The notes under the pieces: model-generated | Told to the model about the DNA's origin: nothing | The model's input: the letters and a program-made list of their open reading frames with translations, nothing else | Databases searched by the model: none | Source: Holosporaceae bacterium | GTDB taxonomy: Bacteria > Pseudomonadota > Alphaproteobacteria > UBA3830 | Reading direction: 5' to 3' | DNA: 10,975 nucleotides | NCBI GenBank assembly: GCA_031284345.1 | Contig: JAITAC010000044.1 | Span: forward strand, 1-10,975 | Program-made: the position numbers and the translations under genes | Shown here: positions 7,397-10,975 of the stretch, piece by piece | Numbering within the stretch: the first letter of the stretch is position 1 | How the letters are laid out: each line of letters starts with the position of its first letter

Positions 7397-7759
7397 TTAG
7401 ATTCCATATATATTCTTCCACTTCTCCACCATAGGCAAAATTAAATTTGGCGGATCCTGAAGATCGCAATCCATGGGAATCACGCATTCTCCTGCTGCAA
7501 AATCCAAACCTGCCGTTAGAGCGGAATCTTTGCCGAAATTTCGTGAAAAATCTACGATTTTTATCTGGGGAATTATTTTTTTCTTCTGAATTAATTTATC
7601 AAAAGTGTTATCGCTACTGCCGTCATTTACGCATATAATTTCAAATTCGCAGCTGAGCTCCCGCAAAACAGGCATTACTTCCGCGAAAAAAACATCAACA
7701 GAATCCGCTTCATTATAAAGTGGAACAACTAAACTAAGAACAATATTTTTTCCGGCCAT
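7397..7759 (-). pseudogene. Family 2 glycosyltransferase, truncated after the GT-A core
   Basis: The 120-residue product is the N-terminal part of a dolichyl-phosphate-mannose-synthase/GtrB-like glycosyltransferase, which would move sugar from a nucleotide donor to a polyprenyl phosphate on the inner membrane. It has LSLVVPLYNEADSV (8-21), the donor-binding NDGSSDNT (45-52), DFSRNFGKDSALTAGLDFA (70-88) and the metal-binding segment MDCDLQDPP (96-104). It stops at EKWKNIYGI, just where full-length proteins (about 310 residues) continue into the acceptor loop and two C-terminal membrane helices. Only 51 bases separate the stop from the next gene, so the remainder is deleted, not merely frameshifted. 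The start is 12 bases after bamE, with AAAGGA just upstream. It is most likely a non-functional remnant; a working minimal enzyme is unlikely. Confidence 0.8.
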
Positions 7760-7771
7760 AATCCTTTACCA

Positions 7772-8179
7772 CTAGCGGAATTTTTTCAGCGTGGACAAAG
7801 CTTCGGCGTCGGTTGTTAACCCGGTTACATCTTCATCTAGACCAACGTTCGACATACCTTTTTCATCTGCTTTCTGAATGGATTTCAATATGCCATTGGC
7901 GTCGAATTCCATGCGCACCGTGATACGATCCTTTAGCTCCACATCACGAAACGAAACTTCCTCAGATTTGTAGCCGATATATATCAAGATAGAGCTCCCA
8001 TGACACAATGATGGGCTTCCACAGTTCTTCAGCACGTCTTCCAGAGTAGTTTTCCCCACAACAAAACTATCATATTTGTTGCAGATTGCAGGATTCCCCC
8101 TCAGACTCACCTTCGGCTGACAGGAACACAACCAAAACGCAATGAATATAGTCGCAATCCGCATCACTTTGACTCTCAT
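7772..8179 (-). CDS. bamE: Outer membrane assembly lipoprotein BamE (SmpA/OmlA)
   Basis: BamE is a lipoprotein of the BAM complex that inserts beta-barrel proteins into the outer membrane. The 135-residue protein starts with a lipoprotein signal peptide (MRVKVMRIATIFIAFWLCSC) whose lipobox LCSC gives acylated Cys20. The SmpA/OmlA fold follows at about 38-105, with VGKTTLEDVLKNCGSPS, YIGYKSEEVSFRDVELKDR and VRMEFDANGILKSIQ, all typical of alphaproteobacterial BamE, as is the short C-terminal LSTLKKFR (relatives end with a similar LGNLGRF-type tail). I chose the ATG at 8179 because GAGGAG lies 10 bases upstream and GGGAGA just before it; ATG at 8164 is the alternative. The frame is open far upstream, but that part encodes an IS30 fragment, not BamE. 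Confidence 0.88.
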   Translation of the reverse strand: MRVKVMRIATIFIAFWLCSCQPKVSLRGNPAICNKYDSFVVGKTTLEDVLKNCGSPSLCHGSSILIYIGYKSEEVSFRDVELKDRITVRMEFDANGILKSIQKADEKGMSNVGLDEDVTGLTTDAEALSTLKKFR

Positions 8180-8217: not shown

Positions 8218-8433
8218 GATGGTTATCAAAGGAAAAGTCAATCCGATTTAGCAACTGTTCCAATGATTTCAATCTGTAAATAATTGCCCTATTTGTATTT
8301 TCCATGGTTTTTCTCCAGATTTTCTCCATGAGTGTTAATTTTGAATGACGCTCAGCGAGCGTGACTAGGGCGCATCGGATACCGTGACTGATTATGGTGT
8401 CGCCTTCCCAATCTCCGATGCGCAATTTTTCAT
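8218..8433 (-). mobile_element. IS30-family transposase fragment
   Basis: About 70 residues are recognisable on the minus strand: LRIGDWEGDTII, ALVTLAERHSKLTL and a divergent RIDFSFDN. These match the catalytic core of IS30 transposases around the first Asp (GDWEGDT) and the second Asp (in T-x-FDNG). The N-terminal helix-turn-helix domain, the catalytic Glu region and both inverted ends are missing. The fragment begins right after the phasin terminator and stops about 40 bases before bamE, in the same frame as bamE by chance or by fusion. It occupies the place where a bamE promoter would be expected. Confidence 0.85.
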
Positions 8434-8436
8434 AAT

Positions 8437-8464
8437 AAAAAAAAGGCTCCGATAACCAGAGCCT
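8437..8464 (-). terminator. Intrinsic terminator of the phasin gene
   Basis: On the minus strand AGGCTC and GAGCCT form a 6-bp stem around a 9-base loop, followed at once by a run of seven or eight T. It begins 25 bases after the phasin stop codon. The opposite strand has no T-run after the stem, so it works in one direction only. Confidence 0.85.
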
Positions 8465-8489: not shown

Positions 8490-8903
8490 CTATTTCTTCG
8501 CCATAAATTTCTTCGCTTCTTCAAAAGATTCTTTAAATCTCTCGGAAGCAACAGTTGAAATGTCCTTATTGGCGTTGGTTACTATATCGGAAATCTGTTT
8601 CCCATTGCCAATGGCTTTGTTAAAAGTACTCTGGGCAACTTCCGAGAATTTCGACGCAGTTTCAGTAGGCTTTGAACTGAAAATTCCTCCAAAATCCTCC
8701 ATTGCTTGCTTGAAAAATGCCGTTTGCAATTTGGCTATGCCTGTGCATACCTCCAGCGACATCTTGTTTATGAGTCCGAGTATTTCTAAATTCTTCTTGT
8801 ATGAATCCCAAAAGGCGTCCGCATTAAACATTGGTGCTTTGAAATTAGCAAAAGAAAAGTCCTTTGTCTTGTCTGTTGTATTTGTACTAGCAGCTGTTGC
8901 CAT
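8490..8903 (-). CDS. Phasin family protein (Phasin_2)
   Basis: Phasins are small amphipathic helical proteins that coat polyhydroxyalkanoate granules; in host-associated bacteria related proteins may have other roles. This 137-residue protein has a disordered, Thr/Ser/Lys-rich start (1-22), then NADAFWDSYKKNLEILGLIN (27-46) and KMSLEVCTGIAKLQTAFFKQ (47-66), the core of the Phasin_2 family. A second amphipathic helical part covers about 84-137 and ends with KKFMAKK. No signal peptide or membrane helix is present. GGAGAG 7 bases before the ATG fixes the start. It is a single-gene unit with its own terminator, and no PHA synthase or depolymerase gene is near, so granule binding is a family-based inference. 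Confidence 0.85.
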   Translation of the reverse strand: MATAASTNTTDKTKDFSFANFKAPMFNADAFWDSYKKNLEILGLINKMSLEVCTGIAKLQTAFFKQAMEDFGGIFSSKPTETASKFSEVAQSTFNKAIGNGKQISDIVTNANKDISTVASERFKESFEEAKKFMAKK

Positions 8904-8926
8904 AATTTTCTCTCCATATTTTTTTT

Positions 8927-8988
8927 AAAAAACTTATACGATCGCCAATAGACAGGCATCGTACATCAGGAACGGTCTGCTTCCCTGA
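8927..8988 (-). promoter_or_regulatory. Tandem hairpins with a T-run in the phasin 5' leader
   Basis: Two imperfect stem-loops lie side by side. The first pairs TCAGG-AA (8966-8972) with TTc-CCTGA (8981-8988). The second pairs TACGATcGCC (8937-8946) with GGCATCGTA (8955-8963) with one bulged base. On the minus strand the second stem is followed after TAAG by six T (8932-8927), and the phasin ribosome site comes about 10 bases later. This could be an attenuator-like leader, or the end of a short RNA started near 9007. The pairing is seen directly; the function is inference. Confidence 0.4.
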
Positions 8989-9235
8989 CTTCCAATAACA
9001 GTTTACATGATAAATTATAAACAAAAGATAATCAACGTTAATTTTAAATAAAAAACAAAATTAATTCATATTGCTTTCCGTATTATAACATAAGAATATT
9101 TACAATGGGGATTATAATCAAAATATCGAAAATATAAAACTACAAAAATCAGAACATTTTTTTCTTTGAATATAAAAATACTAACTTTCTATAATTTTTT
9201 TTTTGTATTTAATAAAAAAGCTTTACTTTATTGTT

Positions 9236-9241
9236 TATAAT
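9236..9241 (+). promoter_or_regulatory. Candidate -10 box for the repeat-protein gene
   Basis: A perfect TATAAT lies 45 bases before the start codon in very AT-rich DNA, but no good -35 box sits at 16-18 bases. An alternative pair is TTTACT (9222-9227) with TATATA (9245-9250) at 17-base spacing. One of the two probably drives the gene. Confidence 0.4.
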
Positions 9242-9286
9242 GTCTATATATAAGTAGATGTTATTTGGAAATAAATAGGAGGCAAA

Positions 9287-10654
9287 ATGAAAAAATATAT
9301 TAAAAACATCGTGTGTATACTCGGAGCAGCAATGATCTTTAACTATGCGGATTGTATGTTTATAGAGGATGAGTTCAATGATGGGTTGAATTACAGTAAT
9401 CCCAGCCCAGGTTATCATTTCAATTCTGGGATATTCAACAGCCCAACGCATGTCGATTCTGTGATCAGCCCAACGCATGTCGATTCTGGGATATTCAACA
9501 GCCCAGGTTATGGCGATTTTGGGACATACAACAGCCCAACGCATGTCGATTCTGTGATATACAACAGCCCAACGCATGTCAATTCTGGGACATACAACTC
9601 TGGGATATTCAACTCTGGGATATTCAACAGCCCAACGCAGGTCAATTCTGGGACATACAACTCTGGGACATTCAACAGCCCAACGCAGGTCAATTCTGGG
9701 ATGTCCAGCAGCCCAGGTTATGTCGATCCTTGGATGTTCAGCAGCCAAACGCATGTCAATCATTGGATGTCCAGCAGCCAAACGCATGTCGACTCTCAGA
9801 TGTTCAACAGCCCAGTGTATAATTGCAATAATTTAGATTTTATACTTGATAACAGCAGTAGTAGCAGCAGTAGCAGTAGCAGTAGCATCACCCCAGCGTA
9901 TATCGATAAGATTATACAAGAAAGCGCTCTTTTAAAAGAGTTGAAAGACAGCGTAACAAATTTATTTGGTGTTTCAATTGCTAGTATGTTAGTTATGCGA
10001 AAAAACACAACATTAGCAGCACTTCATAAAAACCTAGATTTTACTTGCACAAGCAGAATATTTGCGATGTGTGGGAAAGTATTAATTTATTCGTCTCCCG
10101 GTCCCAAAAATTTTATTAAAAGAGAGGTGACAAATTACAATGAAGTTCCTTTTGAAATTCTAGAATGTTTGCAGGATAGCACAACCATAAGAAATCTTGG
10201 CAAACAGCAAGCGGGATTATTTCTTTACCTTAACGAACATCCAGAAGATCCAAAAGATCAAAATGACGTTATTGATAGTTGGACGACTTATCTTAAAAGG
10301 CTTAACTGTCTAATGTTAAAGATAACTAATATTTCTAGTTGTGGTAATATCTTTGGTACAAAGGATGTAAAATTACATACTGCCACTGGCGGGACATTTA
10401 CTCTGTACACACCCAACATGTTTTCGGAGAAATTTTCCGAAACAGCAGCCCTAAACAAAGCGCTGCATGATAAAGATAATTACGTTCTAAATAATTTGAG
10501 AGAAGCTATGATTGCGCGTTATAATTCGATGAATTACTCTTTAAACTCCGATGTATATATGCGAGGACAAGTCGGAACATGGAAAAATAACAATAATGCT
10601 GTCGTTTTAGCTAATAGCTCTAACGATGAGTACGATGAGTACGATGATCAATAA
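9287..10654 (+). CDS. Exported tandem-repeat protein of unknown function
   Basis: I do not recognise this 455-residue protein. A Sec-type signal peptide is visible (basic MKKYIKN, then a hydrophobic stretch to about residue 20, probable cleavage near A21). Residues 47-179 are tandem repeats of an 11-residue unit (consensus SGIFNSPTHVD). A run of 11 serines (190-200) forms a linker. Residues 203-440 form a non-repetitive, probably globular domain, beginning with the amphipathic YIDKIIQESALLKELKDSVT and including CTSRIFAMCGKVLIYSS and EVPFEILECLQD. The end is acidic (DEYDEYDDQ). AGGAGG at 9277-9282 gives a strong start. No membrane helix follows the signal peptide, so the product is likely periplasmic, surface-exposed or secreted. 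The gene stands alone, diverges from the phasin gene, and has an AT-rich flank and a mobile element downstream, consistent with an acquired effector or adhesin; that role is inference. Confidence 0.9.
   Translation: MKKYIKNIVCILGAAMIFNYADCMFIEDEFNDGLNYSNPSPGYHFNSGIFNSPTHVDSVISPTHVDSGIFNSPGYGDFGTYNSPTHVDSVIYNSPTHVNSGTYNSGIFNSGIFNSPTQVNSGTYNSGTFNSPTQVNSGMSSSPGYVDPWMFSSQTHVNHWMSSSQTHVDSQMFNSPVYNCNNLDFILDNSSSSSSSSSSSITPAYIDKIIQESALLKELKDSVTNLFGVSIASMLVMRKNTTLAALHKNLDFTCTSRIFAMCGKVLIYSSPGPKNFIKREVTNYNEVPFEILECLQDSTTIRNLGKQQAGLFLYLNEHPEDPKDQNDVIDSWTTYLKRLNCLMLKITNISSCGNIFGTKDVKLHTATGGTFTLYTPNMFSEKFSETAALNKALHDKDNYVLNNLREAMIARYNSMNYSLNSDVYMRGQVGTWKNNNNAVVLANSSNDEYDEYDDQ
9425..9823 (+). repeat. In-frame 33-bp tandem repeats (11-residue units) with 15- and 27-bp variants
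   Basis: The array starts with Ser47 of the exported protein. Nine units are full length (33 bp). Others are a 27-bp unit (SVISPTHVD at 9458-9484), three 15-bp half units (SGTYN, SGIFN, SGTYN) and a 30-bp last unit. Early units end SPTHVD or SPGYGD; middle ones SPTQVN; late ones change to SSQTHVN with W or M before it. All length changes are multiples of three, so the frame is kept. The middle reads NSG-x-x-NSG-x-x, like the five-residue NxGxx repeats of the Pentapeptide_2 type. Confidence 0.95.
9854..9886 (+). repeat. AGC/AGT trinucleotide microsatellite encoding 11 serines
   Basis: Eleven consecutive serine codons, all AGC or AGT and none TCN, lie between the repeat array and the C-terminal domain of the exported protein. 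The exclusive use of AGY codons points to growth by strand slippage. Length changes would alter the linker without breaking the frame. Confidence 0.95.
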
Positions 10655-10699: not shown

Positions 10700-10728
10700 G
10701 TAGCGTAATGATTTTGTAGTGCTTAAAG

Positions 10729-10863
10729 AGGCTGTTGCATAATGTGATTTTTCTTGCAAGAACAAGGGAGAAGACCGACAACTTATGTTGTGGCGCAGGA
10801 CCGCGGTGTACTCCATGTGTATAACGAAGTCGATTGCGGGAAAAAGTCATTATGCAACAGCCT
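10729..10863. mobile_element. MITE-like element with perfect 16-bp inverted ends
   Basis: AGGCTGTTGCATAATG at 10729-10744 is repeated exactly in inverted form at 10848-10863, and imperfect similarity continues inward (TTTTTCTTGCAA versus TTTTTCCCGCAA). The 135-bp unit has no transposase gene; its GC-richer interior may be what is left of an IS5-like parent. GGCTGTTGCA-type ends are common in IS5- and IS6-like elements. A TTA lies just outside on each side (10723-10725 with the left A-rich edge, and 10865-10867), a possible 3-bp target duplication. The inverted ends are seen directly; family assignment is inference. Confidence 0.75.
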
Positions 10864-10975
10864 TTTAGATATTTGTTCACCGGCCGCCGTCGGATCCTAT
10901 CCTAGAACGCATTGATGCTGATGTTTATTTCTCACCGATTTTTACTTCTCGGACTGTGCAGCGCGCCACTGGAGT
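10864..10975. other. Unassigned GC-richer stretch at the window end
   Basis: After the element the composition shifts abruptly to GC-richer DNA (CCGGCCGCCG near 10879). One plus frame is open from about 10868 to the window end and reads ILERIDADVYFSPIFTSRT in part, but it has no start codon or ribosome site in view. It may be the edge of a gene cut by the element or simply non-coding; I cannot tell from 112 bases. Confidence 0.3.

Follow-up and report, generated by a model that had tools for sequence, protein, structure and literature searches.

The window analysed here, a stretch of 10,975 nucleotides, is the whole of one contig (C137) of a Holosporaceae assembly that comprises 1.05 Mb in 137 contigs and is 88% complete. 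It contains a genuine plus-strand reading frame of 455 codons, from the ATG at 9287 to a stop codon that ends at 10654, which is preceded by a ribosome-binding-site-like AGGAGG (Table 1). The encoded protein displays a signal-peptide-like N-terminus, an array of short repeats, a run of serines, a C-terminal domain of ∼235 residues and an acidic tail. The frame, the polyserine linker and the acidic end had been described in an earlier, sequence-only reading of the locus, and are present as described. The database protein for this contig (P0001, window positions 9800-10654) consists of 284 residues and starts at an internal methionine (residue 172); it is without the signal-like segment and contains almost none of the repeats. 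The longer start at 9287, which had been adopted in the sequence-only reading, is favoured over the 284-residue version because the only orthologue has the same signal-like N-terminus. A minus-strand ORF of 192 residues that overlies the repeat array was not taken as a gene; it is read as a shadow of the repeats, as the plus-strand product is the one with an orthologue. Beyond the divergent phasin gene lie an IS30 remnant and two minus-strand pieces, of which the lipoprotein-like product may resemble BamE/SmpA.

Table 1. Features of the window around the 455-residue protein.
Feature	Position	Strand	Basis
Glycosyltransferase-like N-terminal piece, 120 aa, apparently truncated	7397-7759	-	By eye
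Small lipoprotein-like product, IFIAFWLCSCQPK near start	7772-8179	-	One frame with IS30 remnant in mechanical ORF list
IS30 transposase remnant, just 3′ of phasin	8252-8458	-	NF033563, E 2.1e-11, profile positions 120-189 of 267, 44.1 bits vs cut-off 80
Phasin gene (Phasin_2), divergent, neighbour in both genomes	8490..8903	-	Pfam, alignment
Conserved intergenic region between phasin and gene, with AGGAGG before ATG	8904..9286	.	288/380 aligned bases identical to G002
Whole gene, 455-aa exported-looking orphan	9287..10654	+	ORF and orthologue
Signal-peptide-like N-terminus, residues 1-28, Cys10 and Cys23 common with orthologue	9287..9370	+	17/28 identical, E 3.2e-4, profile E 1.5e-4
33-nt (11-residue) repeat array with 15-nt variants; missing in orthologue	9416..9814	+	Repeat finding, alignment
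11-serine run, residues 190-200, codons AGC/AGT; missing in orthologue	9854..9886	+	Sequence, alignment
Conserved C-terminal domain, about residues 204-438, Cys262 and Cys294 common with orthologue	9896..10600	+	42% identity to orthologue; no family
Acidic low-complexity tail with 9-nt repeat (DEYDEYDDQ)	10623..10651	+	Repeat finding; orthologue tail also acidic
Dispersed inverted-repeat MITE-like element, about 140-150 bp, just 3′ of gene and of orthologue	10726..10866	.	Repeat finding, alignment

The single orthologue is from the same genus (G002, loci L002 and L007; contig JAITQS010000011.1), in a genome named ‘Holosporaceae bacterium isolate Roe453_bin108’. PMC11707648 assigns the genome Roe453_bin28 to the termite Roisinitermes ebogoensis, and the likeness of the two names suggests that the Roe453_bin108 genome probably also derives from a termite gut. 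Both orthologues are divergent from the phasin gene and occupy the same place in the two genomes. Alignment of the DNA runs from the stop codon of the phasin gene (8490) to 9369, just past the signal-like segment, with 73% identity over 975 columns, and a second block, within the domain, extends from 9931 to 10093 (71% over 168 columns). The two proteins share the locus, the signal-like segment, the C-terminal domain, which includes cysteines 262 and 294, and an acidic tail. They differ in that the orthologue consists of 321 residues rather than 455, lacks both the 11-residue repeats and the serine run, and has a different tail. A second allele of the orthologue (P0002) has one residue changed and an acidic tail that is six residues shorter, a loss that suggests slippage. 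G002 also encodes, near its phasin gene, a 740-residue product (L007, 4096-6318) whose N-terminus is signal-like and which contains long acidic repeats.

By a crude rule, rather than a trained predictor, the N-terminus of the window protein contains three lysines in residues 2-9 and a nine-residue core with a mean hydropathy of 2.73. By the same rule, the orthologue has three lysines and a core of mean hydropathy 2.76. The view of the sequence-only reading that the protein looks exported is supported. This segment has 17 of 28 residues in common with the orthologue, and its retention although the sequence directly behind it differs was counted in favour of export. The protein would be exported by the Sec machinery, with cleavage of the signal segment near residue 23-24. 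The residues before Cys23, read by eye as YADC in the window protein and SASC in the orthologue, do not match the standard lipobox pattern [LVI][ASTVI][GAS]C.

Between bases 9369 and 9931 the window contains 561 bases compared with 44 in G002. As the domain begins at around residue 204 in the protein alignment, slightly 5′ of the point at which the DNA alignment restarts, the extra stretch corresponds to about residues 29-203, a spacer of ∼175 residues that is present in the window genome and absent from the orthologue. The repeats and serines were thus either gained in the window lineage or lost in the other. The array reaches a TRF score of 268 at best, whereas none of 100 codon-shuffled versions of the gene scored above 46. 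The 11-residue periodicity that had been claimed stands as a 33-nt array, but it is irregular at the protein level, as only six of the 11 pieces into which the array can be cut are exactly 11 residues long. Of the remainder, one piece has nine residues, two (of 21 and 16) contain additional five-residue SGxxN steps, and the two at the ends have 13 and 16 residues. Since the array consists of stepwise 33- and 15-nt copies, and the only match of the gene's DNA in its own genome is itself, the spacer was probably gained, by local slippage or expansion. Within the six full units pN (0.28) exceeds pS (0.14), values derived from a small number of non-independent pairs, which argues against conservation of the repeat sequence. 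The Pfam repeat profile Pentapeptide_2 scored 12.1 bits, below its gathering score of 26.4. Because both repeats and serines are missing from the only orthologue, the ‘stalk and hinge’ proposed as part of the protein's architecture cannot be regarded as a fixed or conserved part of it; the spacer would instead be accessory, providing spacing or exposure, or reflecting neutral growth. Serine runs occur at one locus each in three of the 10 other genomes of the genus (G010, G006 and G001). Their lengths are 11 and 47 Ser in G001 (L067), 15 in G006 (L066) and 10 in G010 (L065), and by eye the proteins that carry them are unlike the window protein.

The distribution of the gene is narrow. A search of 60 genomes returned matches in three, namely the window's own genome, the G002 orthologue and G038. 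The G038 match (E 0.0095 over 52 residues, with two internal stops) spans residues 174-225, which include the serine run, and was rejected as low-complexity chance; G038 gave no match to the profile used in the search of the order. The domain occurs in two of 40 family genomes, in two of 49 genomes of the order and in one of 385 drawn from the class, the last being its own genome (G002 evidently lay outside the draw). Both family genomes are among the 11 of one genus, several of whose assemblies are incomplete, and this presence in two of 11 indicates that members of the genus can live without the gene. A search of ∼5.8 billion proteins, which requires shared exact five-residue words, matched nothing but the protein itself and a single orthologue allele. 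Paralogues that differ in their repeat arrays, which the sequence-only reading had put forward as a sign of a surface family, did not appear; there is one copy in the window's own genome and one in G002, both incomplete assemblies, and the 40 family genomes yielded the two orthologues only. A literature search conducted without locus or genome name found no title naming the gene among those listed.

The phasin gene itself is matched in 34 of the 40 family genomes. When 557 ORF pieces, taken from 13 of 14 regions around phasin matches (all but that of G002), were compared with the profile at full sensitivity, no relative emerged (best E 0.32). In G007 two ORFs in different frames lie upstream of the phasin gene (L049, 2442-3567), the first with a signal-like start; by profile they are unrelated to the window protein. 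A general tendency of phasin genes in the genus to adjoin exported genes was considered and rejected, as a crude, uncalibrated rule applied to eight loci, own genome not included, flagged five of 16 neighbours compared with 16 of 81 ORFs overall. With 16 of 81 ORFs flagged, being exported-looking says little. Small symbiont genomes contain many orphan exported genes, and in this respect the gene is an ordinary one.

With respect to the C-terminal domain, the claim that it lies outside known families is borne out by searches of Pfam, NCBIfam, PHROGs and PADLOC profiles, in which only weak matches were obtained and none was above chance, and of PDB sequences, which gave two chance-level rows (E 0.55 and 0.81). 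The strongest profile match, to Csn2 (E 0.0074 over 35 residues), was found in the orthologue only, is missing in the window protein and was rejected as chance. A match to a housekeeping family, named beforehand as a result that would refute the sequence-only reading, was not found in the libraries searched. AlphaFold2 models built from three-row alignments reached a mean pLDDT of 41.8 with the window protein first and 41.0 with the orthologue first, low values that reflect alignments holding effectively two sequences. Both of these low-confidence models are rich in helices, and in each of them two long helices lie next to one another in the central part of the domain, with a block pLDDT of 66 at best. 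A Foldseek comparison of the first model, which is too poor to judge, with the PDB gave 374 matches at E ≤ 10 and none at E ≤ 0.001, the best E being 0.3 among the matches listed (50 of 374). The domain could still belong, as a remote member, to a known family that its sequence no longer resembles, a somewhat unlikely explanation that is compatible with the other readings considered here. Such a loss is to be expected of a fast-evolving protein, the profiles rest on two distinct sequences, and the helix-rich character common to both models fits a concealed relationship; the libraries searched, however, gave it no support, and neither did the structural comparison with its poor model. That the domain has a fold of its own and represents a novel class of host-facing Holosporaceae protein, with its exposure tuned by rapid growth and loss of the spacer, seems quite unlikely.

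The domain has diverged rapidly. Between the window and G002 it displays dN 0.51 and dS 1.06 (0.56 and 1.13 over a longer stretch that includes the tail), compared with dN 0.083 and dS 0.72 for the phasin, and amino-acid-changing sites have thus evolved ∼6-fold faster in the domain. The dN/dS ratio of ∼0.48, derived from two sequences at a dS of ∼1, points to a domain that is constrained, but loosely. The phasin (84% identical) and RsmH (86%) are far more conserved; both are cytoplasmic, however, and provide no fair yardstick for exported proteins. These values bear on the possibility, which is less likely than not, that the protein belongs to the envelope or periplasm and has a purely bacterial role, its fast change reflecting weak constraint in a small genome. 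A dN/dS of about one half needs no host-driven selection, the signal-like segment is found without a recognised surface anchor and presence in the family is patchy; the much stronger conservation of the phasin and RsmH would count against this explanation were the comparison a fair one. It is improbable that the gene is decaying or dispensable, with the growth of low-complexity sequence as a sign of decay. Although the gene is found in two of the 11 genomes of the genus and has three stretches of low complexity, neither frame is interrupted, dN amounts to half of dS, and the upstream region, including the AGGAGG, is conserved.

The sequence-only reading had also stressed that the gene stands alone beside a mobile element, an argument that proves weak, as the phasin side of the locus is common to both genomes and the element is a dispersed repeat of 145 bp and of minor importance. 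The MITE-like element is found in five of the 11 genomes of the genus, with 15 match rows in the window's own genome (G000) and at least 54 in G002 (40 of 77 candidates scored), rows that are often single arms rather than copies. It follows the gene directly in both genomes and in G002 also follows the phasin gene, and the window contains an IS30 remnant 3′ of its phasin. The G+C content of the domain, at 35%, is lower than that of the window (41%), the repeats having 46% and the orthologue gene 38%. These features would fit a gene carried as cargo of a mobile element, but the locus, including its intergenic DNA, is common to both genomes, the widespread element lies outside the gene, and phage, plasmid and viral collections contained no match, making such an origin highly improbable.

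The reading that we favour, with roughly even confidence, is that the gene encodes a genus-restricted, rapidly evolving exported protein of Holosporaceae. Its site of action is probably not the bacterial cytoplasm, and may be the periplasm, the cell surface or the exterior. The C-terminal domain, in which Cys262 and Cys294 perhaps form a disulphide, would be the active part, with the eukaryotic host or the host-facing envelope as its most likely target. Holosporales are described in a passage of PMC11909080 as obligately associated with eukaryotes, mostly protists, and a host-facing role is plausible, in keeping with the rapid change of the protein and with the sort of bacterium that encodes it. 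If the protein is indeed host-facing, it would constitute a concrete candidate for the means by which uncultured Holosporaceae interact with their hosts. The same source notes a lack of experiments on the type VI system in these bacteria and on the molecules that it may secrete. The two-genome comparison also provides a clean case of two orthologues of which one has, and the other lacks, a spacer separating the signal segment from the conserved domain.

The tandem-repeat proteins of Anaplasmataceae, such as Ehrlichia gp36, resemble the window protein in belonging to an intracellular bacterium and in containing in-frame repeats, a likeness in manner of working only. They differ in that the repeats of the window protein sit between the signal segment and the domain, and the orthologue is without them. 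Within the same order, the 5.4-, 63- and 89-kDa proteins of Holospora obtusa are, by their titles, periplasmic (PMC11909080), and titles from the same source have the 63-kDa protein secreted and the 89-kDa protein translocated in infection; it is at this level that the window protein may be likened to them.
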